Under the pieces are notes generated by a model. That model searched no databases and was not told the DNA's origin. It saw only the letters and a program-made list of their open reading frames with translations. This document shows positions 2,518 through 51,718 of a DNA stretch of 64,000 nucleotides, piece by piece. The DNA is from Niabella beijingensis. Its GTDB lineage: Bacteria; Bacteroidota; Bacteroidia; Chitinophagales; Chitinophagaceae. Made by a program: the position numbers and the translations under genes. The stretch lies in the NCBI RefSeq assembly GCF_020034665.1, contig NZ_JAIQDI010000002.1, positions 2,685,986-2,749,985 on the forward strand, read 5' to 3'. Every line of letters begins with the position of its first letter. Positions within the stretch are counted from its first letter, which is position 1.

Positions 2518-2529
2518 CAGCGGATCTGG

Positions 2530-2712
2530 TTTTTCCTCCGGGAAAATGAAAAGGGAAGTCCGGTGCAAGCCCGGCGCTATCCCCGTAGCTGTAAGAGACC
2601 TCCTCCGGCCTCCTTGGGAGCCGAAGGAGTAAAAATTGCCGGCAGCAAACCACTGTAACCCTGTTACGGGAAGGTGCCGGCAAGGTCTTGAGCCAGAAGA
2701 CCTGCCAGGACC
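2530..2712 (+). promoter_or_regulatory. Cobalamin (adenosylcobalamin-type) riboswitch
   Basis: The aptamer is recognised by its conserved elements in order: GGGAAGTCCGGTGCAAGCCC, then CCCCGTAGCTGTAA, then CCACTG, then GGGAAGGTGCCGGC, and the closing B12 box GAGCCAGAAGACCTGCC ending at 2706. It precedes a BtuB-type TonB-dependent receptor and a PP-loop ATPase, so bound cobalamin should switch both off. The last aptamer bases GCCAGGA (2704-2710) are complementary to TCCTGGC (2777-2783), which is followed by GGCCTGTTTTTG; this could be part of the expression platform. Outer boundaries are approximate. Confidence 0.92.
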
Positions 2713-2860
2713 GCGCCGGTGCATTCCGGAAAACAATATTCAGCTTTCGGGAGAAAAGTACAATATTAGCAGTCTTTCCTGGCGGCCTGTTTTTGAGGCG
2801 CTCTGAACATTCTTCTACTATTTTATTTCCACCGGGAGCCGTCACCTAAAATCTTAAACA

Positions 2861-5551: not shown

Positions 5552-6142
5552 ATGGACTCCGTAAACTACAAGGCCATATTGACCGTAACTTTTACACTTT
5601 TTGCCATTATTGATATTATCGGCTCCATTCCCATCCTGATCTCCATGAAGAATAAGATCGGTGGCATCCGGGAATTCAAAGTCACTCTTATTGCCGGATC
5701 GCTGATGATCCTCTTCCTGTTCCTGGGAGAACCTATTCTGAATGTACTCGGACTGGACGTAAAGTCCTTTGCCGTTGCCGGCTCCATCGTCATTTTCATC
5801 CTTGGCATGGAAATGGTGCTGGGTGTTGAATTCTTTAAATCGGACGGTGACGTAAAGGCCTCCACTCTCGTTCCGCTTGCTTTTCCGCTGATCGCCGGTT
5901 CGGGAACACTCACTACCATCATGTCCTTAAAGGCGAATTATAAGGAGGTCACCATATTAATTGCCATCCTTTTGAACCTGCTGATCATCTATATCGTATT
6001 AAAATCCCTCACGCGTATTGCAAAACTGCTGGGACCGAGCGGATTAATCGCCATCAGAAAGTTTTTTGGCGTAATTTTGCTGGCTATCGCCATAAAAATA
6101 TTTGCCTCCAATGCGGCGGGTTTATTCCAACACCTGCAATAA
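5552..6142 (+). CDS. MarC family integral membrane protein
   Basis: From ATG 5552 the product is 196 residues with about six hydrophobic segments. The first runs through ILTVTFTLFAIIDIIGSIPI and carries the family's conserved DxxGxxP pattern; a matching half-repeat (VPLAFPLIAGSGTLTTI) follows. MarC/YhcE proteins are inner-membrane proteins of unknown activity; an early link to multiple antibiotic resistance in E. coli was later withdrawn. The start at 5552 is preferred because AGGAAAAG lies just upstream and a -7 box ends at 5536. The gene is followed by tRNA-Arg on the same strand, which has its own promoter. Confidence 0.85.
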   Translation: MDSVNYKAILTVTFTLFAIIDIIGSIPILISMKNKIGGIREFKVTLIAGSLMILFLFLGEPILNVLGLDVKSFAVAGSIVIFILGMEMVLGVEFFKSDGDVKASTLVPLAFPLIAGSGTLTTIMSLKANYKEVTILIAILLNLLIIYIVLKSLTRIAKLLGPSGLIAIRKFFGVILLAIAIKIFASNAAGLFQHLQ

Positions 6143-6168
6143 ATTGCCGTAATTGAAATAAAGTTCTT

Positions 6169-6176
6169 TATATTTG
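6169..6176 (+). promoter_or_regulatory. Promoter of tRNA-Arg (-7 box)
   Basis: TATATTTG matches TAnnTTTG; a TTG at 6144-6146 lies 22 bp upstream as a possible -33 element. Transcription would begin near 6182, about 35 bp before the tRNA. Confidence 0.45.
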
Positions 6177-6216
6177 CCCGCCGGCAGAAAAACCGGCAGC
6201 AGTTCTTTAACACAAC

Positions 6217-6288
6217 GGCCTCGTAGTACAATGGATAGTATAAGAGTTTCCGAAGCTCCAGATACAGGTTCGATTCCTGTCGAGGCTA
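6217..6288 (+). tRNA. tRNA-Arg(CCG)
   Basis: The cloverleaf can be folded by eye. The acceptor is GGCCTCG with CGAGGCT (first pair G-U). The D arm is GTAC/GTAT. The anticodon arm has loop TTCCGAA, so the anticodon is CCG (reads the Arg codon CGG). The T arm is ACAGG-TTCGATT-CCTGT and the discriminator is A at 6288. CCA is not encoded. The top pair of the anticodon stem (A27-C43) is mismatched. A strong terminator follows at once. Confidence 0.93.
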
Positions 6289-6291
6289 CTA

Positions 6292-6328
6292 AAAAGGCAC
6301 TGTGAAAAATTTCACAGTGCCTTTTTTT
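6292..6328 (+). terminator. Intrinsic terminator after tRNA-Arg
   Basis: A near-perfect inverted repeat (AAGGCACTGTGAAA paired with TTCACAGTGCCTT) is followed by a run of T. It ends the tRNA-Arg transcript; with A residues on the left flank it could also work in the other direction. Confidence 0.85.
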
Positions 6329-6421
6329 ATACCAGCCCCGCTATTCCTGCTCCACAGGATCTTATTGTCATTTTCAATCATTCAATGGCCCTCCGGCCAT
6401 CAAACTGTTGCCGGGTGCTTT

Positions 6422-6694
6422 CTAAAGGTTTAAAATATGCAGCACTCCTGTGAGGCAGCAATTATCCTTTTGAGGAGTTTCGGCAATAGCCGTTGCCAGC
6501 TCCACATAATACCCTGCCGTTTCGATGGCGGCCACAATGTGATCTTTAAGCTCCCATGATTCCACGGACACGACCACCAGGCCTGCTGTAATGTTCTCTA
6601 CGCCGACCCCCGGAATGGTTCTGATTGCGTTAAAGACTTTTGTCTGGCAATGCGTGCGCTGCATTGCCGGTACTTTGACGGTTAGATGTTTCAT
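6422..6694 (-). CDS. Small HMA-like (heavy-metal-associated fold) protein with an altered metal site
   Basis: With ATG at 6694 the protein is 90 residues. It starts MKHLTVKVPAMQRTHCQ and shows the beta-alpha-beta-beta-alpha-beta rhythm of an HMA/CopZ domain (IRTIPGVGVENI, then AGLVVVSVE, then VAAIETAGYYVEL). In metal-binding relatives the loop is MxCxxC. Here it is M11-Q-R-T-H-C16, so the first Cys is Arg and only Cys16 remains; His15 is adjacent. Two more Cys lie near the C-terminus (DNCCLT). It is on the same strand as the RND/MFS operon, 95 bp downstream of the MFS gene, and the regulator of that region also carries an HMA-like domain. It may be a metal chaperone with an altered site or a domain that no longer binds metal. 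Confidence 0.7.
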   Translation of the reverse strand: MKHLTVKVPAMQRTHCQTKVFNAIRTIPGVGVENITAGLVVVSVESWELKDHIVAAIETAGYYVELATAIAETPQKDNCCLTGVLHILNL

Positions 6695-6789
6695 TGTAAT
6701 TGATTTTGATATTTGACAGCGGATGCAACCCCGGGATGCAGCCATCTGAATATGATTTTCTTCGAATCTTCCTGTTTATTGCCTCCAGG

Positions 6790-8211
6790 TCACCGGGCTT
6801 TTTTTATTCCGGAAGCAGCAACGAATGCCCCGATCAGGCTTATCACTGCCGCTACAAGAAATGCTTTTTGAAAACCTCCGTTCAGCGCGTTGGTGTCCGT
6901 ATGCCCTGCATGCGTTAACCGCGCCGTGGTTGCAGATGATACAGCCACAATGATGGCAAGCCCCAGAGCCGACCCGATCTGATAGCTGGTATTTACAAGA
7001 CCTGAAGCGAGTCCGGATTCTTCCGGCTTTACTCCGGAAATGGAAGCAACCGTTCCGGGTATATATGCCAGCGACATCCCGATGGCACCCAGTAGGGAAG
7101 CAGGAAGCACATGAACGAGGAAACTGCCTCCTACAGGAGCGGTGCTGAAAAGAAATAAAGACATGCTTAATGCCAGCAAACCTGCTACCAGGTTGGCTTT
7201 GATACCGAATTTACTCATCAGCCTGCTGGTGATCACCATCATAAAAAGCATGATCGTAACCGTCATTGGCAGTAAGGCCAGACCGCTGTAGAAAGCTTCA
7301 AAATTGAGGATCTGCTGCAGATAAAGGTTTAAGAAAAACCATAACGGTATCCAGGCTGCCGCCATCAGGGCCATCACTCCGTTCCCGGCGGAAAGGTTAA
7401 ATGCCCGGAAAACGGACAGGGGCATAATGGGATCTTTTTTGCTTTTCTGTAAAAGAATAAAAGCGAGAAGCAATACAACTGAAAACAGAAGCATTCCCCA
7501 GGTCTGTACCGATTGCCAGCCGTTGCTTTCGGCCGCCACAATGGCATATACCATAACAACAAATGCCGCTGTTCCCAGGATGGCACCGCCGAAGTCGATA
7601 CGTCCCTTTCTGTTAATGCCCCTTAGTAAAAGTGAGGGGCTCAGGAAAAGCACGATCAGGCCGATGGGAATATTTATAAGAAATACCCAGTGCCAGGAGA
7701 GCCATTGTGTGATCGCCCCGCCCAGGAATACGCCGGCAGAACCGCCGGCCGCGGCGGACGCGCCCCAAAAGCCTAAAGCTTTATTCAGTTCTTTCGGATC
7801 TGTAAATTTGCTTAACAGCAATGCAAGGGCAGAAGGGGCGATCAGCGCCGACCCCAATCCCTGCAACGCCCTTCCGATGTTCAGTATCGCTTCAGACCAT
7901 GCCGTTCCTGCTAACAGGGAAGCCGCGGTCAGTATGCCGAACCCCCACATAAATATCTTCCGGGCACCAAAAAGATCAGAAAGCCGTCCGCCTAAAAGCA
8001 GAAAACCACCAAGTACAATAACATAAGCATTGAAGATCCATTGCAACCCCGATTGCGAATACCCCAGATCCGTTTTAATTGCCGGAAGAGCGACTCCGAT
8101 AATAGAAGTATCCATAATGACAATAAACTCTGCTGTGCATAAAAGGAATAATGCTGCCCAGCGTTTGTTATAAGGCGCCGACTGTACTGTTTGTGTTGTT
8201 TGTGAAAGCAT
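6790..8211 (-). CDS. MFS transporter, DHA2-type (14-TM drug:H+ antiporter family)
   Basis: A 473-residue polytopic protein. It has the motif A region GGRLSDLFGARKIF after TM2, the long N-terminal block LFLLCTAEFIVIMDTSIIG typical of QacA/EmrB-like pumps, and about 14 hydrophobic segments. It should export hydrophobic or cationic drugs using the proton gradient. It is the last gene of a four-gene operon (adaptor, RND, TolC, MFS), starting 21 bp after the TolC gene stops. An MFS pump joined to a complete RND system is unusual and suggests one regulator controls two independent export routes. Confidence 0.9.
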   Translation of the reverse strand: MLSQTTQTVQSAPYNKRWAALFLLCTAEFIVIMDTSIIGVALPAIKTDLGYSQSGLQWIFNAYVIVLGGFLLLGGRLSDLFGARKIFMWGFGILTAASLLAGTAWSEAILNIGRALQGLGSALIAPSALALLLSKFTDPKELNKALGFWGASAAAGGSAGVFLGGAITQWLSWHWVFLINIPIGLIVLFLSPSLLLRGINRKGRIDFGGAILGTAAFVVMVYAIVAAESNGWQSVQTWGMLLFSVVLLLAFILLQKSKKDPIMPLSVFRAFNLSAGNGVMALMAAAWIPLWFFLNLYLQQILNFEAFYSGLALLPMTVTIMLFMMVITSRLMSKFGIKANLVAGLLALSMSLFLFSTAPVGGSFLVHVLPASLLGAIGMSLAYIPGTVASISGVKPEESGLASGLVNTSYQIGSALGLAIIVAVSSATTARLTHAGHTDTNALNGGFQKAFLVAAVISLIGAFVAASGIKKAR

Positions 8212-28806: not shown

Positions 28807-30135
28807 ATGTTCTACTTAAGTATTATAACACTTTCGTGCTCGAAGCAAGAAAAGTCGAAAACAGAATTTTCATCAAAAGAAATCGCACTAAATGCTGCAC
28901 AGGTTGAAAAAAAAGCTTTTGGGAAGATATCATTTATTGATGGGGCGTACGATATTCCATTGGAAACAGTCGAAGCCATTGCCGTTAATCTCAATGGCAT
29001 TGTTCCGGATGAGCTAAAGTTATCGAATGGAAAGGATAGGCTCCCAATCGAAAAAATAGTAACCGTTCCTGATAGCACTGGCGATCCGGCGATGTATATC
29101 GTAAACTATGCAAAAAACAATCTAGCAATTTTTTCCGCCGACGAAAGAAGTAACCCTTTACTGGCTGTAGTACCCAGTACAAAATATGAGGCAAAAGAGG
29201 TCCCTCCAGGATTTTATAAATGGCTGGAGATTTCAATGGACTTTATCGCATTGGCGAAGAATCCTACTGTTGGAAAAGATTTGGAAAAGCCCCGAGCCGC
29301 TTGGAAAAAAATAATAAAGGATGCAGCAGCGCATAATGACAAGTTTTTGCGTGCCAATACGTTTGTTAGCAGTTACGACACTTGTATATGGAGCTGTCCA
29401 AACTATCCAGATTGCATGACCTACCCGGAGCTTGGATGCGGGGGACCAGACGTTGATCCGTGTGCGCCATCGGTATACTATTCAAAAGGCCCCTATCTTA
29501 CAACCACTTGGGGGCAGGGTTGCACGTACAACAATCTTGTCCCTTGGAGTGGATGCACGGGAACCGACCGAGCCTGCTCATCTAATGATAAAGCACCCAC
29601 CGGCTGCGTACCTACCGCTATGGCACAAATTCTAAAATATTGGAATCATCCGTCCCTTCCAAATTTTGATTATGTTAATATGCCAGACAGTTACGGAAAC
29701 GCACAAGTACAATTGCTGATGGCATCCGCCGGTTCAAGCTTACCCTCGATCGATTATGGATGCGCTGAAACAGGCGCACGGTTAGATGAAGTCGACGATG
29801 CGTTAAAAAGTACCAAATTTGGCTTTACTCATGCCAACTACGCAACCTACGGTACAGGGAGCTACACTACGGTTATATCAAATTTGAACTCCGGTATACC
29901 TGTTATTCTAGGGGGCTGCCGGGATAAAGTCATATTCGTCCCAACAAAATGCCATGCGTGGGTTTGTGATGGATATTACGAATCCGGCGATCAATGCTAT
30001 CGAGCACTAAAGTTCCATATGAATTGGGGTTGGGATGGACTTTACAATGGATGGTACGATTTTAATAACTGGGAGCCGGCACCCGGATATCACTACCAAT
30101 ATGGGCTGGATATGATTTATAACGCCTACCCTTAA
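28807..30135 (+). CDS. C10 family cysteine peptidase (streptopain-like), N-terminus interrupted
   Basis: 442 residues from ATG 28807. A propeptide-like half (to about residue 190) resembles the Spi/inhibitor-like prodomain (NYAKNNLAIFSADERSNPLL). The papain-fold C10 domain has catalytic Cys267 in PTGCVPTAMAQILKYW, catalytic His383 in KCHAWVCDGY, and the closing MNWGWDG. Substrates are extracellular proteins; known relatives are SpeB, interpain and Bacteroides fragilis Bfp. From 28807 the signal is very short (MFYLSIITLSC). An in-frame ATG at 28771 gives MIKFIP, then a TAA stop (28789-28791), then LLAFS leading into MFYLS, so an intact lipoprotein signal seems to have been broken by one nonsense codon. 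A lipoprotein gene follows 17 bp downstream. Confidence 0.88.
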   Translation: MFYLSIITLSCSKQEKSKTEFSSKEIALNAAQVEKKAFGKISFIDGAYDIPLETVEAIAVNLNGIVPDELKLSNGKDRLPIEKIVTVPDSTGDPAMYIVNYAKNNLAIFSADERSNPLLAVVPSTKYEAKEVPPGFYKWLEISMDFIALAKNPTVGKDLEKPRAAWKKIIKDAAAHNDKFLRANTFVSSYDTCIWSCPNYPDCMTYPELGCGGPDVDPCAPSVYYSKGPYLTTTWGQGCTYNNLVPWSGCTGTDRACSSNDKAPTGCVPTAMAQILKYWNHPSLPNFDYVNMPDSYGNAQVQLLMASAGSSLPSIDYGCAETGARLDEVDDALKSTKFGFTHANYATYGTGSYTTVISNLNSGIPVILGGCRDKVIFVPTKCHAWVCDGYYESGDQCYRALKFHMNWGWDGLYNGWYDFNNWEPAPGYHYQYGLDMIYNAYP

Positions 30136-35020: not shown

Positions 35021-35497
35021 CTATTTACCTGCTACGCTTTGAGTTTTATTGAACAATTTCCAAATTCCTATATTGATAAACGGAAAGGCAACCATGCAAG
35101 CCGCAACGACGAATATATAGCGCAACTTCTTCTCGGGCTGAATATAAAGCGAATAGATCCTTCCTTGTGTGAGCCAGGCAAATATAACTCCTAAAATCAG
35201 TCCGATTAATATTATATAAAGTATTCTCAAATGATACTGAAATTGCAGAACTGACAACAACAAGATTATTGCAAAAAATAGACTAATAAATGAAAAAGCA
35301 AAATAGTATCCTGAATAAAACCCCAGACGCTGAAACACATTCTCTTTTCTACATGCTTCCCAACCTTTCATGTTACATAACATGTAGTCAGTAATAGTTG
35401 TCAAAATGCTTCCAAGAATTGCCAGGGAGAGCATCACCAATAGAAAATGTCCTATTTTTTTACCAGTTGACAAGCTACATCTGAATTTTCCTTTCAA
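35021..35497 (-). CDS. Small membrane protein with four TM segments
   Basis: 158 residues with hydrophobic stretches at FLLVMLSLAILGSILTTI, YFAFSFISLFFAIILLLSVL, ILYIILIGLILGVIFAWL and YIFVVAACMVAFPFINIGIW. A Cys-containing loop (YMLCNMKGWEACRKE) lies between the first two. No family is recognised. It may be co-transcribed with the next small gene (59 bp gap). Confidence 0.65.
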   Translation of the reverse strand: MKGKFRCSLSTGKKIGHFLLVMLSLAILGSILTTITDYMLCNMKGWEACRKENVFQRLGFYSGYYFAFSFISLFFAIILLLSVLQFQYHLRILYIILIGLILGVIFAWLTQGRIYSLYIQPEKKLRYIFVVAACMVAFPFINIGIWKLFNKTQSVAGK

Positions 35498-37616: not shown

Positions 37617-38135
37617 TCAACCAGCAATATTAATATTTGTTTTGACACTTTCGGCTACAGGCAAAATAATACAGTTTCTTATTTTCCGGGTGATCATATA
37701 CAAAGCTTGGCTCATGTCTGTCAACAAGAATGACCTGTACATTATTTCGCCACTGGGGAGTTTTTTGGGGTCCTCTATTAAAACAAAAGGCGCGACAATC
37801 ACTGCATCTTGACTTCCTGTAAAATTCAGGAGGTCTGGTTCTAGTAATTTTTTATCCTCACTTTTCACCTCAATTGTATCAAAGCCATTGTTTCTAAAAT
37901 GCAACAAATAACAATTTGTCAGCTTTTTATTCTGAAGTGTCGAAAAAATAAAGTATATGTTGCCAAAATGAGAAGAATTGAGCTTGTAATGAGGTACTAC
38001 TTCCCTTAATGAGTAGTTAAGTTTATTGAATCCCAAATCTGTCACTTTCTCCTGCGCGTTTGCACAAGACGAACACATTATAAAACAATAAATCATTAAA
38101 AGCTTCTTCATAAAGATTAATTTTTTTATGGACAT
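37617..38135 (-). CDS. Secreted/lipoprotein partner (candidate immunity protein) of the 38126-39781 protein
   Basis: The ATG at 38135 overlaps the last codons of the upstream gene by 10 bp; an alternative ATG at 38111 gives the cleaner signal MKKLLMIYCFIMCSSCANAQ. The mature part is about 140 residues and beta-rich (FGNIYFIFSTLQNKKLTNCY; LLHFRNNGFDTIEVK; IMYRSFLLTDMSQALYMI). No family is recognised. It directly follows a lipoprotein with a zincin-like C-terminal domain and is itself exported, as expected of an immunity protein that acts outside the cytoplasm. The overlap suggests translational coupling. Confidence 0.65.
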   Translation of the reverse strand: MSIKKLIFMKKLLMIYCFIMCSSCANAQEKVTDLGFNKLNYSLREVVPHYKLNSSHFGNIYFIFSTLQNKKLTNCYLLHFRNNGFDTIEVKSEDKKLLEPDLLNFTGSQDAVIVAPFVLIEDPKKLPSGEIMYRSFLLTDMSQALYMITRKIRNCIILPVAESVKTNINIAG

Positions 38136-39781
38136 TTGGTTCCTTTGTTTAGGTTATTGAAAGCATTTCTTTCATTCGCGACTAGTATCATCGCACCACT
38201 AGGGAAGGAAGTTGGTTCAAAAAAGCCATTTACAGACAAAGCGTCTCCTACATCATAGGGAAGATTAGGGTTATATTGTAATATTACCGCTCTGATATCA
38301 TTTCGATAGTTTGAAGCCATTGCGCCATGATTATCACTTGTCTTAAATTGATATATTTTATCAAGTGGACTATTAGGATCGTCTTGCAGATAGACGCTGA
38401 TTGATGGATATTTAGCCGCAAAGACAGCTTCGCCAAGTCTTGCGTGTTCTAAAGCAAGATACGCATGGAGAATTTCATGTAGCATGGTAGACAAGATAAT
38501 TTCCTTTGTTCCGAAGTTTAATAAAGAGTCATCTAAATATATAGTACCACCAACAGTATAACTACCATACACATCTTTATATCCTGAAACCTTACCTTGA
38601 AATAATCCATCGTCTTTTGTTAATGCACGAGAAGCAAATACTAAATTATTTCCAGTAGTAGAATCATTGAACACACTCCTTAGCATACCAGATATGCAAT
38701 TGCTCGATTTTATGACGGTTTCTAAGACCCCCTTAGCACATGGGTAATTTTGCAAGGAGTCGGTAATATTTTGACCAGGCGGGTTACTAGAAGCCCCGTC
38801 ACCACCACCACCTCCTCCTCCACCTCCACAGTTACAAGGATCGGTTGGGTTAGGATCACCCCAACCACAGTCACCACAACCATCATCTGAACCGGTGCCC
38901 GTATCCGTATCGGTATCAGTGTCTCTTACCCCGGTAACAACTACCGTTTGCATATTGGAATCCGGATCATTCGTGTCATATTCATCAGTATCTGTACTAT
39001 CACCACCGGAAAACGCCATTACGGGAGGCCGTTCTTCATAACTACGGGCAGCACTTCCCGGTTGAATGGTAACCGATTTTGACACTTTTTCACTGGGAGC
39101 CCTGCCAAGATCTGCACCACCATTAAATGGTACATATGTCTGTTTGGCTTTGGAGGTGCCGAAGGATTTTAGAAAACTGCTGATTTTATTTTTTGGAAAT
39201 AAGCGGGCTACCATTTTACCGTTCTTGTAAACAGCTCCCCGGATAAATTCATTTTTTACACTGTACAGATACATCTTACCGGTAAAAGTGGCCGGGTCTG
39301 AATAGGATCGGATATGCTCCTGCGGACCTTTGAGTTGTATCTGACTGTTTAGATACGCAGTGTCAAACAACTGAAGTTGAACTACCGCATTAAAAGTCTT
39401 TGTCTTGTGGTTCCTTACAATAATTAAATCTCTGAAACCCCGGTATCGCGTTTTGAGATCAGTATAGTCCAATGTCGAGATCAGACTATTCGAATACTTT
39501 CTAAAAGCATGAGTCTCATTCCATTCCGGAACACCAGCAAATACACCCTCGGCATAAGAAACCATTCTTATTGATTTCCCATCTGCCGCGCTTTTGGCCA
39601 CGGTAATTTCGTCCTTATACTCTTTTTCAAACCATTTTTGCGCATCGGCAACTGTCAGAGGACGCGCGGATTTTAAATCAGGAGAATCCCAGTAACTATC
39701 CCGGTTTCTTACGCAGGAAATAACAAAAACAATGATGCCGAGCAGCAGTGTAGGCAGCAATAGCAGTAAGCGTTTTTTCAT
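38126..39781 (-). CDS. Polymorphic lipoprotein with C-terminal HExxH zincin-like domain
   Basis: 551 residues: lipoprotein signal (MKKRLLLLLPTLLLGIIVFV then ISC), a conserved N-terminal region (about 30-250), an Asp/Thr repeat segment, a Cys/Gly-rich linker ending in a run of nine Gly at about 320-330, and a distinct C-terminal domain. That domain has HEILH (435-439) with a further His at 446 and at 485 (NHGAMAS), a zinc-metallopeptidase pattern. The first about 320 residues match the 40670-42094 protein with only a few differences and no gaps; after the Gly run the two are unrelated. A small exported protein gene overlaps its 3' end. The layout fits a polymorphic toxin or effector with a variable C-terminus; activity is inferred. 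Confidence 0.8.
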   Translation of the reverse strand: MKKRLLLLLPTLLLGIIVFVISCVRNRDSYWDSPDLKSARPLTVADAQKWFEKEYKDEITVAKSAADGKSIRMVSYAEGVFAGVPEWNETHAFRKYSNSLISTLDYTDLKTRYRGFRDLIIVRNHKTKTFNAVVQLQLFDTAYLNSQIQLKGPQEHIRSYSDPATFTGKMYLYSVKNEFIRGAVYKNGKMVARLFPKNKISSFLKSFGTSKAKQTYVPFNGGADLGRAPSEKVSKSVTIQPGSAARSYEERPPVMAFSGGDSTDTDEYDTNDPDSNMQTVVVTGVRDTDTDTDTGTGSDDGCGDCGWGDPNPTDPCNCGGGGGGGGGDGASSNPPGQNITDSLQNYPCAKGVLETVIKSSNCISGMLRSVFNDSTTGNNLVFASRALTKDDGLFQGKVSGYKDVYGSYTVGGTIYLDDSLLNFGTKEIILSTMLHEILHAYLALEHARLGEAVFAAKYPSISVYLQDDPNSPLDKIYQFKTSDNHGAMASNYRNDIRAVILQYNPNLPYDVGDALSVNGFFEPTSFPSGAMILVANERNAFNNLNKGTKCP

Positions 39782-39912
39782 AAATTTCTGTTTGGTTTAG
39801 GAAAATAAATTATAAATTTATCTATATAAATATATGATTATTTTTTATATATTCCAAAAAGACAGCAATCTTTATACACATTGATTGCGAAACACTATGA
39901 TTTTTCCGACTC
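38798..39912. repeat. Long direct repeat, copy 1
   Basis: About 1.1 kb is nearly identical to 41111-42225 at a constant offset of 2313 bp within the coding part. It covers the poly-Gly linker, the whole conserved N-terminus, the AT-rich promoter region, and in weaker form the bases up to an ATG (39897) that corresponds to the start codon of the glycosyltransferase gene beside copy 2. Confidence 0.9.
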
Positions 39913-40033
39913 CACCACGGCGACAATTCTCCTTCCTTGCAGTCTGGCACGCTCCAACCCTCCAGCCGTCGTTGTGCAAACTTTCCATTTAAACCTGACC
40001 GGTCGTTTCTTCATCCTTTTCGTTTGGATTCCT

Positions 40034-40657
40034 TTATTTTAGAACATCCACATTTCGAATATCGAATGATTCATCAAAGAGAAAATTGTAAATCGGAACT
40101 CCAACGCTTAAATTGGAGTATCCGCTGGGGTCATAACCGTAAATTTTGTACTTAAAAAGCAAATAATGGTCATAGTAATCATAATCCGAGAAAGAAGCCT
40201 CGAAGGTTTTTTTTATCTGTTTGATTAAGTCATCCTGAAGTCTTCCAGCCTGCAGATAAACAATATGGTGCAATGGAATAGATTCGTTGAACAGAAATTT
40301 ATAAGTATCCCTATAAAAAATTGTGAATACCGGGCAAAGAAGTGATGCATTTATTACCAACTCCCTCTTGATTTCACAAATATTCTCCTTGACAATATCC
40401 TTAATTACAATACTCATTTCATATGAAGGGAATTGCAAATAGGAAACATCATTTATTGGAAAGCCAATTTTCGCTTTTTCTAAACCACCTAAAAACACAG
40501 TCCATTTCGTATCCTTCTTTTCTATTATATCTGTGATTTTCTGCTCGACAATCTTATTCTTTCTAAGTATGCCATCATAGCTGTTTTGTTGATTAGGAGC
40601 ACCTATAGGATAGTATTTATATAAATGCTCAAGCAAAGTAGTAATCTCATTTTTCAT
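40034..40657 (-). CDS. Candidate immunity protein of the 40670-42094 lipoprotein
   Basis: 207 residues, no signal peptide. It is rich in Tyr, Asp and Lys: MKNEITTLLEHLYKYYPIGA, KWTVFLGGLEKAKIGFPIND, FSDYDYYDHYLLFKYKIYGY. It starts 12 bp after the stop of the second polymorphic lipoprotein on the same strand, the place held by another unrelated small gene in copy 1. This positional swap is what cognate toxin/immunity pairs show. No family is recognised, and its cytoplasmic nature contrasts with the exported partner in copy 1. Confidence 0.6.
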   Translation of the reverse strand: MKNEITTLLEHLYKYYPIGAPNQQNSYDGILRKNKIVEQKITDIIEKKDTKWTVFLGGLEKAKIGFPINDVSYLQFPSYEMSIVIKDIVKENICEIKRELVINASLLCPVFTIFYRDTYKFLFNESIPLHHIVYLQAGRLQDDLIKQIKKTFEASFSDYDYYDHYLLFKYKIYGYDPSGYSNLSVGVPIYNFLFDESFDIRNVDVLK

Positions 40658-40669
40658 TTTGTCATATTT

Positions 40670-42094
40670 TTAAGGCCAGCACCAGGAAACATCCGCGCTT
40701 GCAACGCCACTACATTGCGCCGTTGGGGTGAACTTAGATCCACTTACGCCATAATTTATTTGAGTTCTGACTGTTTTCAGCATGTCCTCATATATTGCGA
40801 GTGCAGTTGGTGCTGTGAGCCCCAAATTTAGGTTGTCTCTCACTGCATCAAGAGATCGATTGAAGGCCGCATTAAAAATCCGGCTGGCTTCTAAAGATGA
40901 TCCGGAAAGCGGTCCTATAGGAACAGTAACACAAACATCAAAAAAAGTAGGACGAATTATCTGCTCAGGCTGGCCTGAACTGCCTATGTATCGGAATTCC
41001 ATTGGAATACTCGTAAATCGAATATTATACGAGTTTCCAATCTGAGTCATATTATAGTTCTTATTTAAACACAGTTTAGCTATTGATGGAGGAGGGGGTG
41101 TGCCTGGCCCAGAGCTGCCACCACCACCACCTCCACCTCCACAGTTACAAGGATCGGTTGGGTTAGGATCACCCCAACCACAGTCACCACAACCATCATC
41201 TGAACCGGTGCCCGTATCCGTATCGGTATCAGTGTCTCTTACCCCGGTAACAACTACCGTTTGCATATTGGAATCCGGATCATTCGTGTCATATTCATCA
41301 GTATCTGTACTATCACCACCGGAAAACGCCATTACGGGAGGCCGTTCTTCATAACTACGGGCAGCACTTCCCGGTTGAATGGTAACCGATTTTGACACTT
41401 TTTCACTGGGAGCCCTGCCAAGATCTGCACCACCATTAAATGGTACATATGTCTGTTTGGCTTTGGAGGTGCCGAAGGATTTTAGAAAACTGCTGATTTT
41501 ATTTTTTGGAAATAAGCGGGCTACCATTTTACCGTTCTTGTAAACAGCTCCCCGGATAAATTCATTTTTTACACTGTACAGATACATTTTACCGGTAAAA
41601 GTGGCCGGGTCAGAATAGGATCGGATATGCTCCTGCGGACCTTTGAGTTGTATCTGACTGTTTAGATAAGCAGTTTCAAACAACTGAATTTGAACTACCG
41701 CATTAAAAGTCTTTGTCTTGTGGTTCCTTACAATGATTAAATCTCTGAAACCCCGGTATCGCGTTTTGAGATCAGTATAGTCCAATGTCGAGATCAGGCT
41801 ATTCGAATACTTTCTAAAAGCATGAGTCTCATTCCATTCCGGAACACCAGCAAATACACCCTCGGCATAAGAAACCATTCTTGTTGATTTCCCATCCGCC
41901 GCGCTTTTGGCCATGGTAATTTCGTCCTTATACTCTTTTTCAAACCATTTTTGCGCATCGGCAACTGTCAGAGGACGCGCGGATTTTAAATCAGGAGAAT
42001 CCCAGTAACTATCCCGGTTTCTTACGCAGGAAATAACAAAAACAATGATGCCGAGCAGCAGTGTAGGCAGCAATAGCAGTAAGTGTTTTTTCAT
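40670..42094 (-). CDS. Polymorphic lipoprotein, second copy with a different C-terminal domain
   Basis: 474 residues. Residues 1 to about 325 match the 38126-39781 protein (MKKHLLLLLPTLLLG..., lipobox ISC, Asp/Thr repeat, Cys-Gly linker) apart from a few substitutions such as R4H. After the Gly run and a Pro stretch (GTPPPPSIAKLCLNKN) the C-terminal about 135 residues are unrelated to copy 1: PMEFRYIGSSGQPEQIIRP, FNRSLDAVRDNLNLGL, YEDMLKTVRTQINYG, ending SADVSWCWP. Four Cys are spread through this part. No zincin motif and no known family is seen. It is the last gene before a divergent glycosyltransferase, sharing its promoter region. Confidence 0.75.
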   Translation of the reverse strand: MKKHLLLLLPTLLLGIIVFVISCVRNRDSYWDSPDLKSARPLTVADAQKWFEKEYKDEITMAKSAADGKSTRMVSYAEGVFAGVPEWNETHAFRKYSNSLISTLDYTDLKTRYRGFRDLIIVRNHKTKTFNAVVQIQLFETAYLNSQIQLKGPQEHIRSYSDPATFTGKMYLYSVKNEFIRGAVYKNGKMVARLFPKNKISSFLKSFGTSKAKQTYVPFNGGADLGRAPSEKVSKSVTIQPGSAARSYEERPPVMAFSGGDSTDTDEYDTNDPDSNMQTVVVTGVRDTDTDTDTGTGSDDGCGDCGWGDPNPTDPCNCGGGGGGGGSSGPGTPPPPSIAKLCLNKNYNMTQIGNSYNIRFTSIPMEFRYIGSSGQPEQIIRPTFFDVCVTVPIGPLSGSSLEASRIFNAAFNRSLDAVRDNLNLGLTAPTALAIYEDMLKTVRTQINYGVSGSKFTPTAQCSGVASADVSWCWP

Positions 42095-42225
42095 AAATTT
42101 CCGTTTGGTTTAGGAAAATAAATTATAAATTTATCTATATAAATATATGATGAATATTTTTATATAACCAAAAAAGATAGAAACTTTTTGTACACACTGA
42201 TTGCTAAATACTATGACGTTATTGA
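41111..42225. repeat. Long direct repeat, copy 2
   Basis: Second copy of the about 1.1 kb repeat. It is the likely ancestral copy, because here the divergent glycosyltransferase gene continues past the repeat end, whereas in copy 1 only its start codon is left. Confidence 0.9.
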
Positions 42226-43706
42226 CTTCCCGAAAAACAAGCATAATCATTTTACTGATTATCATAATCTTATACATCATTGCATCATTTACTCTTGTCG
42301 GCTATTATCATCCGGACGAGCACTTCCAGATTTTAGAATTTGCACAGGCTAAAATGGGCAGGCTGGACAGAAGTGGGATGGCCTGGGAATTTCACTATGC
42401 TATGCGACCATCCCTTCAACCCTGGATGGTAGTGGGATTGCAAAAGGTTATTGGATACAGCAACCCTTATACCACTGCACTTGTATTAAGATTAGCTACT
42501 GCACTGCTCTCACTATGGGCTATCCTACGGTTTATAAGAGTAGTGAGGCCGGCATTCAAGGGGAAATGGTTAATTGCTTTTGTGCTTATGTCATTTCTTA
42601 TATGGTATCTTCCTTATCTCAATGTTCGTTTCAGCTCCGAAACATGGTCCGGGCTTTTCTTTCTCTTAGGTCTTTCCTACGTGGCGGGGGCAGAAAAACT
42701 TTCAAGGGTACAAGCGCTGTTTTGTGGCTTATTACTGGGTATTGCTTTTTTGTGTAGATATCAGGTGGCAATAATGATTATAGGGCTACTGCTCTGGTCT
42801 GTCATTATCAAAAAGGAGCGGATTAGCAATATTCTCCTTGTTATAGCGGGCTGCACGTTTATTGCGGCAATAGGAGTGGTTATGGATTATTATTTTTACG
42901 GCTATTGGACACTGTCTGTATGGAACTATTACAATATGAACATAGTTCATGACAGAGCCTCAGCATTCGGAACGACTGACAGCTTCAGCTTTCTGATGCA
43001 GGTTATTGATGCAATGACAATTCCAGTTGGAGCCGTAGTGCTTTTCACTTTGCTCCTTATAATCATTTATCGCCCCCGTTCGTTTATCGTTTGGATTATA
43101 ATGCCCTTCCTGGTCATTCACCTTATCATCCCACATAAGGAAGTAAGGTTCCTTTTCCCGCTTGTTAACCTTACTGCATATACCATTATTCTCGGGGCGC
43201 AGATAATCCGGGAACGGACAAAAAACATAAACCTGCGACCTCGTCAAAGTGAGGTGGCAAAAGGTGTTTTTGCGGCAACAATTTATGTAGTTATTCTATT
43301 TAACGTTGCCTGCCTCACAATAGCAATACTTTCTCCTCCCTTTTACGGAAGGATCGCGATCGCTAACTATATTTTCAATAAGTATCCCAAAGATAATATC
43401 GAATTAACGGGGTTGCGGCGTAGCAATGTCTTTAACCCGTATTCCATCATCACCCAATCGTTTTACCAAATGGACAATGTTCATTTCCACCCGATTGCCA
43501 GTTATGATTCATTGACAAACGTCGCTCCTTTATCCACCAGATCATTTTTTATTGTACAACGGGGTGATCTGAAAAATCCGAAGGTACTTGACCTGCTGAC
43601 TGCTCAAAATGCCCGGCCTGTTAAAACCATCCGCCCGCTCTGGTTAACTTCATTGTTGGATCGTTTCGGTATGGCTGACAGAGATTTTGTCTTGTTTGGA
43701 AAATAA
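42213..43706 (+). CDS. GT-C fold mannosyltransferase-like membrane protein (GT22/PIG-B-like)
   Basis: 497 residues from ATG 42213 (a TTG at 42201 could add four). About ten TM segments. The first loop carries YHPDEHFQILEFAQA, the acidic motif of GT22 enzymes (Alg9/PIG-B), followed by EFHYAMRPSLQPWM, which resembles the E-x-R-S/P motif of the same family. Such enzymes use a polyprenol-phosphate sugar to glycosylate a lipid or protein on the outer face of the membrane. Two more GT-C-type genes follow (11 bp, then coupled), so this is likely one operon that decorates a surface glycan. The acceptor is unknown. Confidence 0.8.
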   Translation: MTLLTSRKTSIIILLIIIILYIIASFTLVGYYHPDEHFQILEFAQAKMGRLDRSGMAWEFHYAMRPSLQPWMVVGLQKVIGYSNPYTTALVLRLATALLSLWAILRFIRVVRPAFKGKWLIAFVLMSFLIWYLPYLNVRFSSETWSGLFFLLGLSYVAGAEKLSRVQALFCGLLLGIAFLCRYQVAIMIIGLLLWSVIIKKERISNILLVIAGCTFIAAIGVVMDYYFYGYWTLSVWNYYNMNIVHDRASAFGTTDSFSFLMQVIDAMTIPVGAVVLFTLLLIIIYRPRSFIVWIIMPFLVIHLIIPHKEVRFLFPLVNLTAYTIILGAQIIRERTKNINLRPRQSEVAKGVFAATIYVVILFNVACLTIAILSPPFYGRIAIANYIFNKYPKDNIELTGLRRSNVFNPYSIITQSFYQMDNVHFHPIASYDSLTNVAPLSTRSFFIVQRGDLKNPKVLDLLTAQNARPVKTIRPLWLTSLLDRFGMADRDFVLFGK

Positions 43707-43717
43707 TCTAACATTTT

Positions 43718-44992
43718 ATGGAACGATCACTACACAAAACGCTATGGTTCTATATTCAAACCGACCGGTTCCTGGCCGCAACTTTTTTTCTGCTCGTATT
43801 TGCTTTCGCCTACAGTCCTGCTACTACATTGAGTTTCTCTATGCCCGACGACCATTGGATGTTGCTAAAAAACGATTACGTTCATCCCGATAAAATGGAT
43901 GTACCCTACTTTGAAACCATATTCAACAGGATCAATAACATCCAGTATTCACCATTAAATACACTTTATTACTACCTGGTTTATCAGATCAATGGCTTTG
44001 ATCCATTTTACTTTCATCTGATGAATATTATTATACATTTTTTTAACGCTATTCTTGTCTTCCGCTTATCTCTTAAACTGCTGGAGGCCTTCTCTATACC
44101 TAACAGTTTGCTCATAGCCTATACTGTTGTATTATTTTGGGCTATCCACCCAATGCATGTGGAAGCAGTAGCATGGATATCCGGGTCAAAGATTCTGTTT
44201 TGCACCTTATTTACATTAGTCTCCTTCAACCAGTTTATTTCTGCTGTTCGTAGCAATAAATGGTATTATTATCTGCTTAGTTTTCTAACTTTTGTCATAT
44301 CCTTTTACTTCAAAGAGCAGGCAATAATTACACCTGTAATGTTGCTCATGTTTGTGGTTTTTTATAAACTTCACCATTTAAAAAGGATCCGGTTGTCAGT
44401 CGGAGAAACACTGTTTCTTTTGCTATCATTCGGAGCCGCAATCTACTTCGGCCTATATACCATTCACGTAAACTATAAGGAGGACCTGGATTTTCCGCCG
44501 ATAAACTATTATCCGATTACACAAAGAGTTTTGCTTATAGCCTATTGCTTTTACTTTTACTCAGTCAACCTAATCGCTCCCCATGGATTAAACTATCACA
44601 GGGAGTTTCCTTTTGTTCCGTATCAGCATACACCCCCTGAATTTGTTGGCTACCTGATTTATTCCATAGCTGCCATCATAGTAATCTTCTATATTGTCTG
44701 GCGTTCGAAAAACCGGCATTTCTACCTGCTCTGCTTGCTAATTGGCTTAGCACAACTATCACTTGAATTGCAGGTAATACCCATGACGCGTCCCGCCATT
44801 TTTGCCGACCGGTATATGTACTTTCCCGCAATCGTTTTTATCGCCGCCATTACAGTGGCATTGACGGCATTAAGAAAATATCCTTTTGCAAAACTTCTTT
44901 ATAAGCCGGTAGTAATTGCATACCTGTTATACTTCACCCTATACAGCAACCAGATGGCAAATTACTGGCATAACTTAAATATGATTAGATAA
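43718..44992 (+). CDS. TMTC-like polytopic membrane protein (GT-C fold)
   Basis: 424 residues with about ten TM segments. The first loop has MPDDHWMLLKNDYV, the acidic pair seen in GT-C enzymes. A TMTC-like block follows: YFHLMNIIIHFFNAILVFRL and AIHPMHVEAVAWISGSK, closely like the NxxxHxxNAxLxF and HPxHVEAVAWI motifs of TPR-containing O-mannosyltransferases. The C-terminal TPR domain of those proteins is absent. It starts 11 bp after the previous gene, and its stop overlaps the next ATG (tAATGA). Confidence 0.78.
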   Translation: MERSLHKTLWFYIQTDRFLAATFFLLVFAFAYSPATTLSFSMPDDHWMLLKNDYVHPDKMDVPYFETIFNRINNIQYSPLNTLYYYLVYQINGFDPFYFHLMNIIIHFFNAILVFRLSLKLLEAFSIPNSLLIAYTVVLFWAIHPMHVEAVAWISGSKILFCTLFTLVSFNQFISAVRSNKWYYYLLSFLTFVISFYFKEQAIITPVMLLMFVVFYKLHHLKRIRLSVGETLFLLLSFGAAIYFGLYTIHVNYKEDLDFPPINYYPITQRVLLIAYCFYFYSVNLIAPHGLNYHREFPFVPYQHTPPEFVGYLIYSIAAIIVIFYIVWRSKNRHFYLLCLLIGLAQLSLELQVIPMTRPAIFADRYMYFPAIVFIAAITVALTALRKYPFAKLLYKPVVIAYLLYFTLYSNQMANYWHNLNMIR

Positions 44993-45609
44993 TGACCCGA
45001 GATAAAAAAATAATCCGAGCGCTAACTTTCTTGTTCATACTCTCTACCAGCTTTTCATTATATGCACTGTTGGCAAAAAAAAACACAGCTGCGCCCGTGT
45101 TTCTGTTCATGTATGATAAACAGCGCCGTTTTCTAAGCGAAGATTCGCTTAGCCGTCCGGAATTCTGGGACAATTACCCGTATTACATTCTCGTAAGCAT
45201 GCACAAAAGCATTCATCTGGAAAGATATGCCAGCGATGAGAAAAGCAAAAGTCTGATCGAGGATCGCCTGAAAGCCAACAAAAGGTTATTCTACCGGTTT
45301 CACTACGTAGCAGGCCAGGATTCGGTTTATCACCAAACGCTTCAATCTGTCACCCAATCAGGCAGACAGGTAGTTTTACTAACAGATAGAAACTCTGTGG
45401 CCTATTTGAATAACTTTATTGATACCAGTAAGCACAATATAGACATTGTAGATGTAACAGACCTGCCTATATACCTGGAAAAGCCAGGGCTTTCTTACTT
45501 CTTCAGAGTATCTAAAAACAACACAGTAGTTGATCTTTTTGTACCACGAAAAGAGCTGCCTGAAGTGACCGACAAATACATTAGTTACGTCTTTTCAACA
45601 AGCAAATGA
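44992..45609 (+). CDS. Small membrane-anchored protein within the GT-C operon
   Basis: 205 residues with one N-terminal hydrophobic segment (IIRALTFLFILSTSFSLYAL) that acts as an anchor or signal, and a soluble part (YDKQRRFLSEDSLSRPEFWD; YYILVSMHKSIHLERYA; FHYVAGQDSVYHQTLQSV). No family is recognised. It overlaps the preceding stop by one base and the following ATG by four (ATGA), so all genes here are translated as a coupled unit. A role as a non-catalytic partner of the glycosyltransferases is inferred. Confidence 0.65.
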   Translation: MTRDKKIIRALTFLFILSTSFSLYALLAKKNTAAPVFLFMYDKQRRFLSEDSLSRPEFWDNYPYYILVSMHKSIHLERYASDEKSKSLIEDRLKANKRLFYRFHYVAGQDSVYHQTLQSVTQSGRQVVLLTDRNSVAYLNNFIDTSKHNIDIVDVTDLPIYLEKPGLSYFFRVSKNNTVVDLFVPRKELPEVTDKYISYVFSTSK

Positions 45610-47225
45610 AAGGCCGGAGCAACTATTTTAAAAGATTGTGTTTAATCCGCAACAATAAACCTGTTGTGTATAACATTGCCAGCATTGCAGTATTTCTATA
45701 TTTTCTTTTTTGGTGGACCTACAAACTGGCAAGTCTCCCAGGCCTACATGGAGATGAAGCCTGGTTTGCGTTGAAGGGAGTGGAATTTAATCAAAGTGGC
45801 ATTCATGAATTACAAGGTATGAATTCCTATACCGGAATATTTCAGTCCCTCTTTGACAGCATTTTTTTCAAGATCTTCCATATCGGTATAATAGAAATGC
45901 GGGTTACCGGTGTAATACTCAATTTGTCAGCAATTGCCATTTTATATTCAGTCTTTCGGTCCCTAAGAAAACCAAAGACATTCATTATCTTCTCCCTGCT
46001 TCTGTCTCAATCGGCGCTTTTTCTAATTTCACCCCGTGTAGCCTGGGAGGTAAATACCTTCACATTTTTCTCTATTGCTGTTCTTTTTGCATCTGCTGTC
46101 CGAATACTTACCAACAATAAACGATCTAACGGGTTGAATCATTGGCTTTTCCTTGCTGCTAACCTATTCGGATCGTACAACCATATCATATTTTCCTGCG
46201 TATCCCTATCGGCGCTGTGCGCCTATATTTTATGGTGCATACATAGTAGGTCTATCATTAAAAGACATTTCGGAATACTCCTTTTCCTCAATGCAGGCAA
46301 CGTTACAGCATTGTTTGTAGTAATGCAAGCGAATTTATTTAAGTCATTACAGCAACAATTGTGGGCACCGGTTCTGGCTTGCCTGGCACTGATTATTGAG
46401 GCGTTCGTTTTATATCATTTCACCAACAAATCCAGCCACACCGATATCGTTCCCTGCAAACTGAACAACAATACTTCAGCTCTTGCCACGATCGTTGTGC
46501 ACTTGATAATCGCTTTTTGCCTCGCATCATTCATGTTCTATCATGGGATCGCCCTGATAGATGTATTTTCAAATTATCGTCTATTGATGCATGCTTACTC
46601 TTATCCCGTTTCCCCGATACTGGAAACTATTATGACAACAGCAGCAGTGGTGTTGATGGGATCTCTTGCCTACTGCCTCGCAAATGACCTGTTTAGTAGA
46701 AAAAAATCGCCTGTAGCCTTTTTTATTGTGATCTACATGGGAGCGCTCTCCTTTTATACAGAAAGAACATCTTTCAGGTATTATCTCGCTATTTCTATCA
46801 TCCTGATCTTATATCTCGCTTGGCGGGCAAGTACACCGGGGATGCGAAAACAACCATTATTTGCTGCAGCAACAGGTATGTTTCTTTGTCTGAATCTTTC
46901 GTTAATTACTATATTCCGTTCGGACTATAAAATAAAAAAGGCACTGAGGTTCCAGATTGGTAACGGACAGGTTGAAACTTCAGCGCATTTTCTACCGAAT
47001 CAACCACTTATAGACTCATTAGCCCAAAATAAAATTGGTGATATACGGTATGGTTCCGGCCGCTATTTTATGGAACAGCCGATCCTATTTTACAAACTTC
47101 TACGCCCCTGGAACGAACAAAAAGAAAAAAGCGCAGCTATCAGCTATGATTATCGGGGAACAGGCAAAGATGGTTTTATATTCCAGACTTCTACCGCCGA
47201 TAATATTCCGCTTCCATCAAAATGA
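45606..47225 (+). CDS. ArnT/PMT-like glycosyltransferase of the GT-C fold
   Basis: 539 residues with about ten to twelve TM segments. The first periplasmic loop carries GLHGDEAWFALKGVEFNQSG, the D-E motif of the ArnT/PMT group, followed by YTGIFQSLFDSIFFKIFHIG. ArnT-like enzymes transfer a sugar from a polyprenyl phosphate to lipid A or proteins. It closes the operon of three GT-C genes and one small protein. The C-terminal domain is short and not recognised. Confidence 0.82.
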   Translation: MKGRSNYFKRLCLIRNNKPVVYNIASIAVFLYFLFWWTYKLASLPGLHGDEAWFALKGVEFNQSGIHELQGMNSYTGIFQSLFDSIFFKIFHIGIIEMRVTGVILNLSAIAILYSVFRSLRKPKTFIIFSLLLSQSALFLISPRVAWEVNTFTFFSIAVLFASAVRILTNNKRSNGLNHWLFLAANLFGSYNHIIFSCVSLSALCAYILWCIHSRSIIKRHFGILLFLNAGNVTALFVVMQANLFKSLQQQLWAPVLACLALIIEAFVLYHFTNKSSHTDIVPCKLNNNTSALATIVVHLIIAFCLASFMFYHGIALIDVFSNYRLLMHAYSYPVSPILETIMTTAAVVLMGSLAYCLANDLFSRKKSPVAFFIVIYMGALSFYTERTSFRYYLAISIILILYLAWRASTPGMRKQPLFAAATGMFLCLNLSLITIFRSDYKIKKALRFQIGNGQVETSAHFLPNQPLIDSLAQNKIGDIRYGSGRYFMEQPILFYKLLRPWNEQKEKSAAISYDYRGTGKDGFIFQTSTADNIPLPSK

Positions 47226-50236: not shown

Positions 50237-51718
50237 TTATAACTGTGATATCAATGCCGTTACTTTGTCTTTAAGCTCTTTATTATCCGGCTTAAAGTGC
50301 AATGCCTTTTTATAAACATGGAGGGCTTCTTTCTTTTTACCCGTTTCGAGTAACACATCGCCATATACCTGGCAAAGCAGGGCATCGTTCGGATAAAGCA
50401 GATACCCTGTCCGGAATGTTTCAAATGATTCCTCAAATTTCCCGGTACGGAAAAATTCATACCCCATCGCCACCCAGTCGATAGCACCCATCGTGTAATG
50501 AGCCGTATCTTCCCTGTTATCCATAAAATTCAACAGCGCAGTATTGGCTCCGCGGGTAACGATATCCCTGCCATAAGGAAAAGTCACGGGTGTTTTTAGC
50601 CGTTCCATAGGTAAACGGTGTAACAAACGCAGGCAATTGAATGCGGAGGCGCTGATGCCGGCACTGTTGCCATTATCAAGAAGAATAACTGAAGTACCCG
50701 TGGAAAGGCGCTGCAACAATATTGTGCTGGTACCATTTTTGAACCCGGAATGAAAGACCATTTTTCCAAGCTGGCTATCCTGGAGAAGAAACCAACCAAG
50801 ACCAAAATTAACCGTTCCCGGATAGTGCGGGCAGGTAGCTGGTTTTCCATTATTGAGCTTCACAGGTGTAAACATCTTTGCCAACGTTGCCGTTCTGAGC
50901 AATTTGCCGGTCATCAGGGCCCGGTCGAAAGCAAACAGATCCGGAGCAGTGCTTACTACCAAACCCGGTCCCACCACACCTCCGGAAGCATGTAGAAACC
51001 GTTGATTGCGGGCGACAGTATCTGCTGTTACCAGGGTGGACGCATAATAGGTCGGGTACATAAGCGGCAATGCCCGGTTCCCATCCCGGACCGGGGCATT
51101 AAAACGGCTTATATATGTATGCCGCATCCCGGCAGGTTTGAAAATGTACTTTTGAAGATATGCTTCAAAACCCATCCCGCTTTGCCGTTCAACGATCAAC
51201 GCAAGCAGTGCTATTCCGGGACTTGAATAGCTCCATTTGTCGCCCGGTTCAAAAAGCAGCTTTACGCCATTTTTCAATACCGGCAAAATAGCTTCATTCG
51301 TCATTACCCGTTCCGGAGCGGCGTCGAGCAGCTTGTCAAATATTTCAAAATCCGGTAAACCGGAAGTATGAGAAAGCAGGTGTTCGATCTTTACTGAAGG
51401 ATAAGGAAACTCCGGCAGATACTGCTGCACCGGATTTTGCAGTTTTATTTTCCCCTGTTCCTGCATTTGCATTACTGCCACCGCCGCAAACACTTTTGAA
51501 AGCGAGGCAAGCTCATAACGCGTCGAATCGTTGTTATGCATACCATTTGACCGGGTAAAAACAACACGATCTCCCTGACCGATCAATACACTGCCATGAA
51601 AGAATCCAAATTGAGAAAGAGAGGAAAATAAACTATCCAACGCAGTGTGCGGGAACTGTGTTGCTCCCCGTAAAACCAACCCAAGCAGGGCCAGCATGGT
51701 AAAAAGCAGCTTTAACAT
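50237..51718 (-). CDS. Serine hydrolase of the beta-lactamase/class C family with C-terminal TPR
   Basis: 493 residues with a signal peptide (MLKLLFTMLALLGLVLRGAT). The class C-type domain has the catalytic S72-x-x-K75 in ELASLSKVFA, the YSS triad element (164-166) in KWSYSSPGIAL, and an HSG near 315 (MVFHSGFKNG) replacing KTG. From about 430 a TPR-like stretch ends the protein (DALLCQVYGDVLLETGKKKE). Such proteins are more often peptidases or esterases than true beta-lactamases. A -7 box lies at 51797-51804. It is a single-gene unit. Confidence 0.9.
   Translation of the reverse strand: MLKLLFTMLALLGLVLRGATQFPHTALDSLFSSLSQFGFFHGSVLIGQGDRVVFTRSNGMHNNDSTRYELASLSKVFAAVAVMQMQEQGKIKLQNPVQQYLPEFPYPSVKIEHLLSHTSGLPDFEIFDKLLDAAPERVMTNEAILPVLKNGVKLLFEPGDKWSYSSPGIALLALIVERQSGMGFEAYLQKYIFKPAGMRHTYISRFNAPVRDGNRALPLMYPTYYASTLVTADTVARNQRFLHASGGVVGPGLVVSTAPDLFAFDRALMTGKLLRTATLAKMFTPVKLNNGKPATCPHYPGTVNFGLGWFLLQDSQLGKMVFHSGFKNGTSTILLQRLSTGTSVILLDNGNSAGISASAFNCLRLLHRLPMERLKTPVTFPYGRDIVTRGANTALLNFMDNREDTAHYTMGAIDWVAMGYEFFRTGKFEESFETFRTGYLLYPNDALLCQVYGDVLLETGKKKEALHVYKKALHFKPDNKELKDKVTALISQL

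Follow-up and report, generated by a model that had tools for sequence, protein, structure and literature searches.

A lipoprotein gene pair in Niabella beijingensis with a common N-terminal carrier and exchanged C-terminal tails: a putative polymorphic toxin/immunity locus

The locus treated here is a pair of lipoprotein genes, carriers A and B, in a 64,000-nucleotide (nt) stretch of the Niabella beijingensis genome (the window), and its closest described counterpart is the SitA/SitI system of myxobacteria (Vassallo et al. 2017, PMC5562445). In the parts of that paper that describe the system, the toxin is itself a lipoprotein, as here, and joins a constant N-terminus to a variable C-terminal toxin, with an adjacent immunity gene and often with mobile elements nearby. 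The same parts report SitA relatives only in Myxococcales and only together with traAB, and state that no significant relatives were found outside that order and that the system was, to the authors' knowledge, the first of its type (PMC5562445). Set apart by description, SitA tails are typically nuclease-like (PMC5562445, in the portion dealing with tails), whereas the tails here are zincin, Tox-MPTase3, JAB-like and unnamed domains. Lipoprotein polymorphic toxins are not wholly new, SitA being one, a caveat to the interpretation put forward in an earlier reading of this DNA made without database searches (the sequence-only reading). MafB-N, Microscilla-N and APD1/APD2, in the sections of Zhang et al. 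(2012, PMC3482391) devoted to them, likewise have a conserved N-terminal domain with a signal peptide (a lipobox in APD1/2), polymorphic C-termini and a proposed surface anchoring. They are described there as restricted to Neisseria, Microscilla and Amoebophilus, whereas the present carrier, compared by description, occurs with a partner gene in at least 15 of 101 genera of its family; the APD effectors, in the same sections, are predicted to target the cells of a eukaryotic host, with several deployed in parallel.

We propose, with a probability of roughly three in four, that A and B belong to a polymorphic toxin/immunity system that uses a lipoprotein as its carrier and follows a SitA-like logic, in which the tails would be toxic, the small genes behind them would confer immunity, and the carriers would be displayed at the surface and delivered to neighbouring cells. 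The architecture of the carriers, the swapping of their tails and, for the tail types other than zincins, the linkage of tail and partner gene are observed directly. The features concerned are as follows.

38126-39781, minus strand: carrier A, 551 amino acids (aa), with lipobox Cys23, residues 1-326 shared with B, a poly-Gly linker, and a putative SprT-like zincin with an HEILH motif at residues 328-551
40670-42094, minus strand: carrier B, 474 aa, with residues 1-326 the same as in A, a poly-Gly linker, and a 148-residue C-terminal region of unknown fold (type B)
38817-39838, minus strand: shared unit, copy A, made up of 57 nt upstream and 965 coding nt up to the linker
41130-42151, minus strand: shared unit, copy B, at a spacing of 2313 nt from copy A
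37617-38135, minus strand: proposed immunity gene A, 172 aa, with a hydrophobic N-terminus, overlapping the end of A by 10 nt
40034-40657, minus strand: proposed cytoplasmic immunity gene B, 207 aa, with no hydrophobic N-terminus, after a 12-nt gap behind B

The sequence-only reading had described two lipoproteins with almost identical, gapless N-termini at a constant offset, a loss of similarity at a poly-Gly linker, unrelated small genes downstream and no Rhs, PAAR or LXG marker, and this description was borne out throughout. Both open reading frames lie on the minus strand at the positions given; residues 1-326 align without gaps and with 5 amino-acid changes, the first 965 coding nt differ at 11 positions at an offset of exactly 2313 nt, and similarity is then lost inside the poly-Gly run. 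The two small proteins have no mutual match listed at E<0.01, and no Pfam or NCBIfam model, whether for Rhs, PAAR, LXG or anything else, scored above its cut-off in A or B. Both genes also have in common the 57 nt that precede the ATG, with 1 mismatch, so each has its own start region; farther upstream the resemblance, judged by eye, is weaker. For the N-terminal region of the carrier, neither Pfam nor NCBIfam gave a match above cut-off and the one match among solved structures (E=0.065) lay over the signal region, while defence-system models returned nothing for the carriers or their partners. AlphaFold2 models of A (3-row alignment) and of the type B domain alone, made from window sequences and L025 only, had predicted local distance difference test (pLDDT) values of 28.6 and 50.6, both too poor for a fold search.

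The evidence for exchangeable cassettes comes from a set of 27 carriers, each cut at the linker and compared with its next gene. Pieces of interrupted genes (G287, G660_2 and G770) and G006, the tail of which has 37 residues, are included in this set; L040, L050 and L059, for which no partner was seen or only a fragment was present, and L045-L047 were left out. With tails taken as similar at E<1e-3 and partners at E<0.01, 13 of 52 similar-tail pairs have similar partners, a figure that 0 of 10000 shuffles of the partners reached (maximum 10). Similar partners without tail similarity at this threshold occur in three pairs, namely two of type B (tail E 0.0013 and 0.0015) and G248b-G287. For the 17 carriers other than A-type zincins (tails E<0.01), 12 of the 13 pairs whose tails are similar also have similar partners and none of the remaining 123 pairs do, again with 0 of 10000 shuffles doing as well (maximum 7); G248b, which has a Tox-MPTase3 tail, was counted among these 17, and its additional match to the zincin of G022 at 1e-4, as a cross-group pair, was not counted. 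When N-termini are alike (E<1e-10) and tails unlike (E>=1), 0 of 16 pairs of the 27-carrier set have similar partners. This pattern is the one that cassette exchange at the linker leaves behind.

Type B provides the same pattern across diverged carriers. The tail and its partner recur on all four type B carriers found (window B, L027, L036 and L041), with a homologue of small gene B directly behind each of the three others. The N-termini of these three match that of window B only at E=0.0045-0.022, and their partners match the window's partner at 5.1e-21 (G075), 1.7e-8 (G227) and 1.5e-7 (G122). The polymorphic toxin/immunity pattern that the sequence-only reading had recognized is therefore supported both by the variety of tails and by the recurrence of the type B tail and partner on three diverged carriers.

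Several results weigh against our proposal. The split into 10 A-type zincin carriers and 17 others was made after the whole-set result had been seen, and the pairs in these statistics share members and are not independent. Among the 10 zincin carriers, 3 of 41 similar-tail pairs have similar partners, and 7308 of 10000 shuffles do as well; the tail nearest to that of A in the set, in G698 from another family (E=8.4e-32), is followed by a gene with no significant similarity to small gene A (E=0.25). The zincin of A falls under the Pfam SprT cut-off and is not Tox-MPTase3, and L060 (G776), a zincin carrier with a small gene behind it, has a frame whose start, in the stretch examined, shows no signal peptide. 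The type B domain contains three invariant Cys, which fits an exported domain and is odd beside a partner that has no signal peptide. Because zincin partners do not track the tail, the cognate status of 37617-38135 rests on its position, its hydrophobic N-terminus and analogy; either zincin immunity genes undergo rapid divergence or replacement, or this class operates in another way.

The failure of zincin partners to track their tails would also suit carriers that are envelope enzymes, or effectors against eukaryotes or nutrients, with small genes that serve as chaperones or as inhibitors unrelated to immunity. The zincin tails could be digestive, and the Amoebophilus proteins APD1/APD2, lipobox carriers with variable tails, are predicted to be host-directed in the passages on them in Zhang et al. 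(2012, PMC3482391). We nevertheless consider this explanation unlikely, since one tail is a curated polymorphic-toxin domain that is common to an Rhs protein, partners track the tail in the other tail classes, the partner is duplicated behind a third copy of the carrier, and exchange occurs at the linker.

Turning to the partners themselves, among the partners of the other zincin carriers small gene A matches only that of G808, and weakly (E=0.0011; 0.034 in a larger set), and the two window partners are A+T-rich, with a G+C content of 0.34 and 0.33 against 0.45 for the window. A hydrophobic N-terminus is absent from three of the four type B partners; in the fourth, G075, a hydrophobic run begins at about residue 15 of a GTG-started frame. 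The other 23 partners of the 27-carrier set all have a hydrophobic N-terminus, with a best 12-residue Kyte-Doolittle mean of at least 1.69. If partners are located where the toxin acts, the site of action would be the cytoplasm for type B and the envelope for the peptidase types.

Tails of four kinds (zincin A, type B, JAB-like and Tox-MPTase3) are found on the closer carriers and additional ones, several of them unnamed, on the diverged carriers; the outcome that the sequence-only reading had named as refuting it, an N-terminal domain always joined to one and the same C-terminus, was therefore not seen, and its assignment of an HEILH motif to A and of an unknown kind to the C-terminus of B held. 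Alignment of six zincin C-termini gave 7 invariant columns, among them those of the Glu and the two His of HExxH and that of an additional His. Against the Pfam SprT-like family (PF10263) the zincin of A scores 14.2 bits, under the cut-off of 25.6, with relatives at 17.4, 20.5 and 23.4, and the best match of a zincin profile among solved structures is Spartan 6mdw (E=0.0026). These matches suggest that the tail of A is a distantly related SprT-like zinc peptidase. SprT/Spartan peptidases have the HExxH in common with this tail; Spartan is an intracellular, DNA-associated enzyme, whereas the domain here is borne on a lipoprotein. In a class-wide sample the zincin was present in 6 of 149 genomes, including the window's own. 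Of the five occurrences besides the window, three (L056, with a stop inside the tail, L057 and L058) form the C-terminus of a lipoprotein that a small gene follows, one is L060, and L059 is a 197-aa fragment. The zincin of A may be an auto-processing peptidase instead of a toxin, but it is the last domain and there is nothing behind it to release.

The tail of L014:9794-11269 is a Tox-MPTase3 domain (59.9 bits against a cut-off of 25). This domain exceeded its cut-off in 2 of 117 genomes of a family sample. In G100 (L062) it ends an RHS/YD-like protein (by eye; open frame of 3040 aa), behind which lies a gene for a 128-aa product that begins with a hydrophobic stretch, and in G076 its frame extends past the end of the contig. 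Zhang et al. (2012, PMC3482391), in the sections and tables covering these domains, describe Tox-MPTase1-5 as exclusive to polymorphic toxins, typically with RHS repeats, and list Tox-MPTase3 with type II secretion (T2SS) and PVC export. As the domain is a polymorphic-toxin domain and also ends an Rhs protein, the lipoprotein carrier appears as a further vehicle for a known warhead; the toxin domain is common to both designs, and the long RHS/YD carrier contrasts with a lipoprotein part of roughly 230-330 residues here.

The JAB-like tails (L016:8346-9899, L014:5353-7011 and L024:3017-4651) have no Pfam hit and show by eye an HxH...S..D motif, which we take to be the JAMM pattern. Type B has no named relative and no hit above cut-off; its best match among solved structures, a phage tail fibre protein at E=0.024, was taken as chance. 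It was found in 1 of 198 genomes of the class sample (the window's own) and, in family samples, in 2 of 244 genomes with a single sequence and 3 of 195 with a profile, the fourth carrier (G227) coming from the carrier search. A lipoprotein carrier with a variable tail, and partners that mostly have a hydrophobic N-terminus, could also be pictured as a variable surface antigen or a phage-evasion display, in which domains that change are presented on an anchor that does not, with the partner helping in secretion or display. The catalytic motifs, however, are kept (HExxH plus His in six tails, HxH...S..D by eye in three, and the Tox-MPTase3 domain), and we regard such a role as very improbable.

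The carrier is present in three copies in the 6.59 Mb, 3-contig genome of N. beijingensis; the third, 32% identical over residues 9-197, has a JAB-like tail and a partner gene doubled in tandem (E=1.9e-54 between the duplicates). Among named relatives, the N-terminal part is closest to that of Niabella ginsengisoli (70% identity; one of 57 stretches in a contig search). At E<=0.001 a match was obtained in 6 of 17 genomes of the genus, and the carrier is present in the own genome and G006; the matches in the four others cover only about 40 residues at the signal region, and the two loci examined among them both proved to be another lipoprotein. A single-sequence query matched 3 of 394 genomes of a family sample at E<=1e-5, and a 5-row profile matched 3 of 396 genomes of an order sample at E<=1e-4, two of them new (G084 and G660). 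With an 8-row profile, at least 19 of 244 genomes and at least 19 of 101 genera of a family sample matched at E<=0.001, counts that are lower bounds with up to 12 candidates scored per genome. Of 16 new loci from this search, 11 encode a lipoprotein in which a spacer leads to a tail of its own kind, and have a small gene after it, the small gene extending past the fetched stretch in L033, L039 and L043; L040 and L050 are lipoproteins with no partner seen. L045, L046 and L047 were rejected as relatives, being other proteins. After inspection of the loci, carrier and partner stand together in at least 15 of the 101 sampled genera. No carrier relative was confirmed in viral contigs (8 stretches matched a pattern), and no match for carrier B was found in plasmids.

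A second pair of carriers occurs in another genus (G248), in which the N-terminal DNA is identical over 938 nt and the tails are unrelated; the two genes are 4.3 kb apart, with two other reading frames between them. Pairs of this kind, with identical or near-identical N-terminal DNA, display cassette swapping. A single lipoprotein gene that was duplicated in tandem in the ordinary way, one 3' end being replaced or diverging later, would also yield two adjacent copies with near-identical 5' ends, and would leave A and B with unrelated neighbours and no function in conflict. We hold this to be a remote prospect, as the tails are separate domains with relatives of their own on other carriers rather than diverged copies, the same pattern is seen in the second genus, and the type B tail and partner recur on diverged carriers.

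Under the proposed toxin/immunity reading, the constant part would consist of a type II signal peptide, a lipid anchor, a carrier domain of ~200 residues and a low-complexity Asp/Thr/Gly linker, and it would anchor the protein in the envelope, probably in the outer membrane and probably at the cell surface. The linker would be the recombination joint at which C-terminal toxin and immunity cassettes are swapped. The lipoprotein may then get to a neighbouring cell on contact or through vesicles, where the tail of A would act in the envelope as an SprT-like zinc peptidase and the tail of B in the cytoplasm with an unspecified activity, while the small gene behind each carrier would protect the producer.

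In support of the anchor, a lipobox-like Cys is present in 24 of the 27 carriers, the other three being two interrupted-gene pieces and G776, and 22 of the 24 have Lys or Arg at the second position behind this Cys (by eye; no background set). Lys together with acidic residues after the Cys makes up a surface-export signal of Bacteroidota lipoproteins. The type VI secretion system (T6SS) sheath protein VipB (PF05943) gave 0 matches in the own genome at E<=0.001 (the E. coli control was found); other secretion systems were not searched for. The lipobox, the lack of a known secretion domain and the absence of a VipB match leave a different delivery design as a possibility, and the simplest reading, we infer, is that the protein would be displayed at the surface and then passed on by contact or in vesicles. 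We see about an even chance that these carriers constitute a lipid-anchored polymorphic toxin class distinct from SitA, spread across Chitinophagaceae and, as diverged carriers, other families of Bacteroidia, with the surface lipoprotein itself as the vehicle and no known secretion apparatus, that is, a second independent lipoprotein-based design. If the genes kill, a further lipoprotein toxin carrier exists in Bacteroidota, and it would have to be asked, as a testable question, by what route the tail of a protein held by a lipid anchor enters a neighbouring cell when no known secretion machine takes part. The carrier profile is also a means to find toxin/immunity families of unknown activity, such as type B.

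Two further features of the window adjoin or resemble genes near other carriers.

42201-45609, plus strand: three-gene block of an Alg9-like mannosyltransferase and two genes with no Pfam match, adjoining the pair and also adjoining the G248 carriers
35021-35497, minus strand: membrane protein, 158 aa, with phmmer matches of 3.4e-15 to L015:6229-6453 and 3.5e-6 to L015:5994-6251

The genes of the block are 41, 51 and 50% identical between the window and G248, and the corresponding stretches with the block in the two genera are window 42201-47225 and L014:1389-4884. The middle gene has matches in 2 of 17 genomes of the genus, its own included, the other match being 37% identical and interrupted by internal stops. 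The block probably represents co-transferred neighbours, with no membership in the system implied. In Niabella ginsengisoli a homologue of 35021-35497 is divided between two frames and precedes the carrier by about 200 nt; the window gene is possibly an orphan immunity or accessory gene. Upstream of a diverged carrier that has a JAB-like tail, at a distance of about 1.4 kb, lies a MobA-type relaxase gene (L024:608-1615), and other carrier relatives adjoin apparent transposase or recombinase genes (by eye). The A+T-rich partners, the patchy block and the nearby relaxase fit horizontal spread.

The partner of this JAB-like carrier, L024:4658-5191, matches DUF6705 (PF20448, 58 bits), which may be an immunity family. 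At L068, a type B carrier has its start codon where a 619-aa frame (2105-3964) ends, and the end of its partner gene is overlapped by a frame of 486 aa (5885-7345). Elsewhere in the window, 28807-30135 (plus strand) encodes a C10 family peptidase with a Spi protease inhibitor domain, and 50237-51718 (minus strand) encodes a protein with a PF00144 (beta-lactamase family) domain and C-terminal tetratricopeptide (TPR) repeats.

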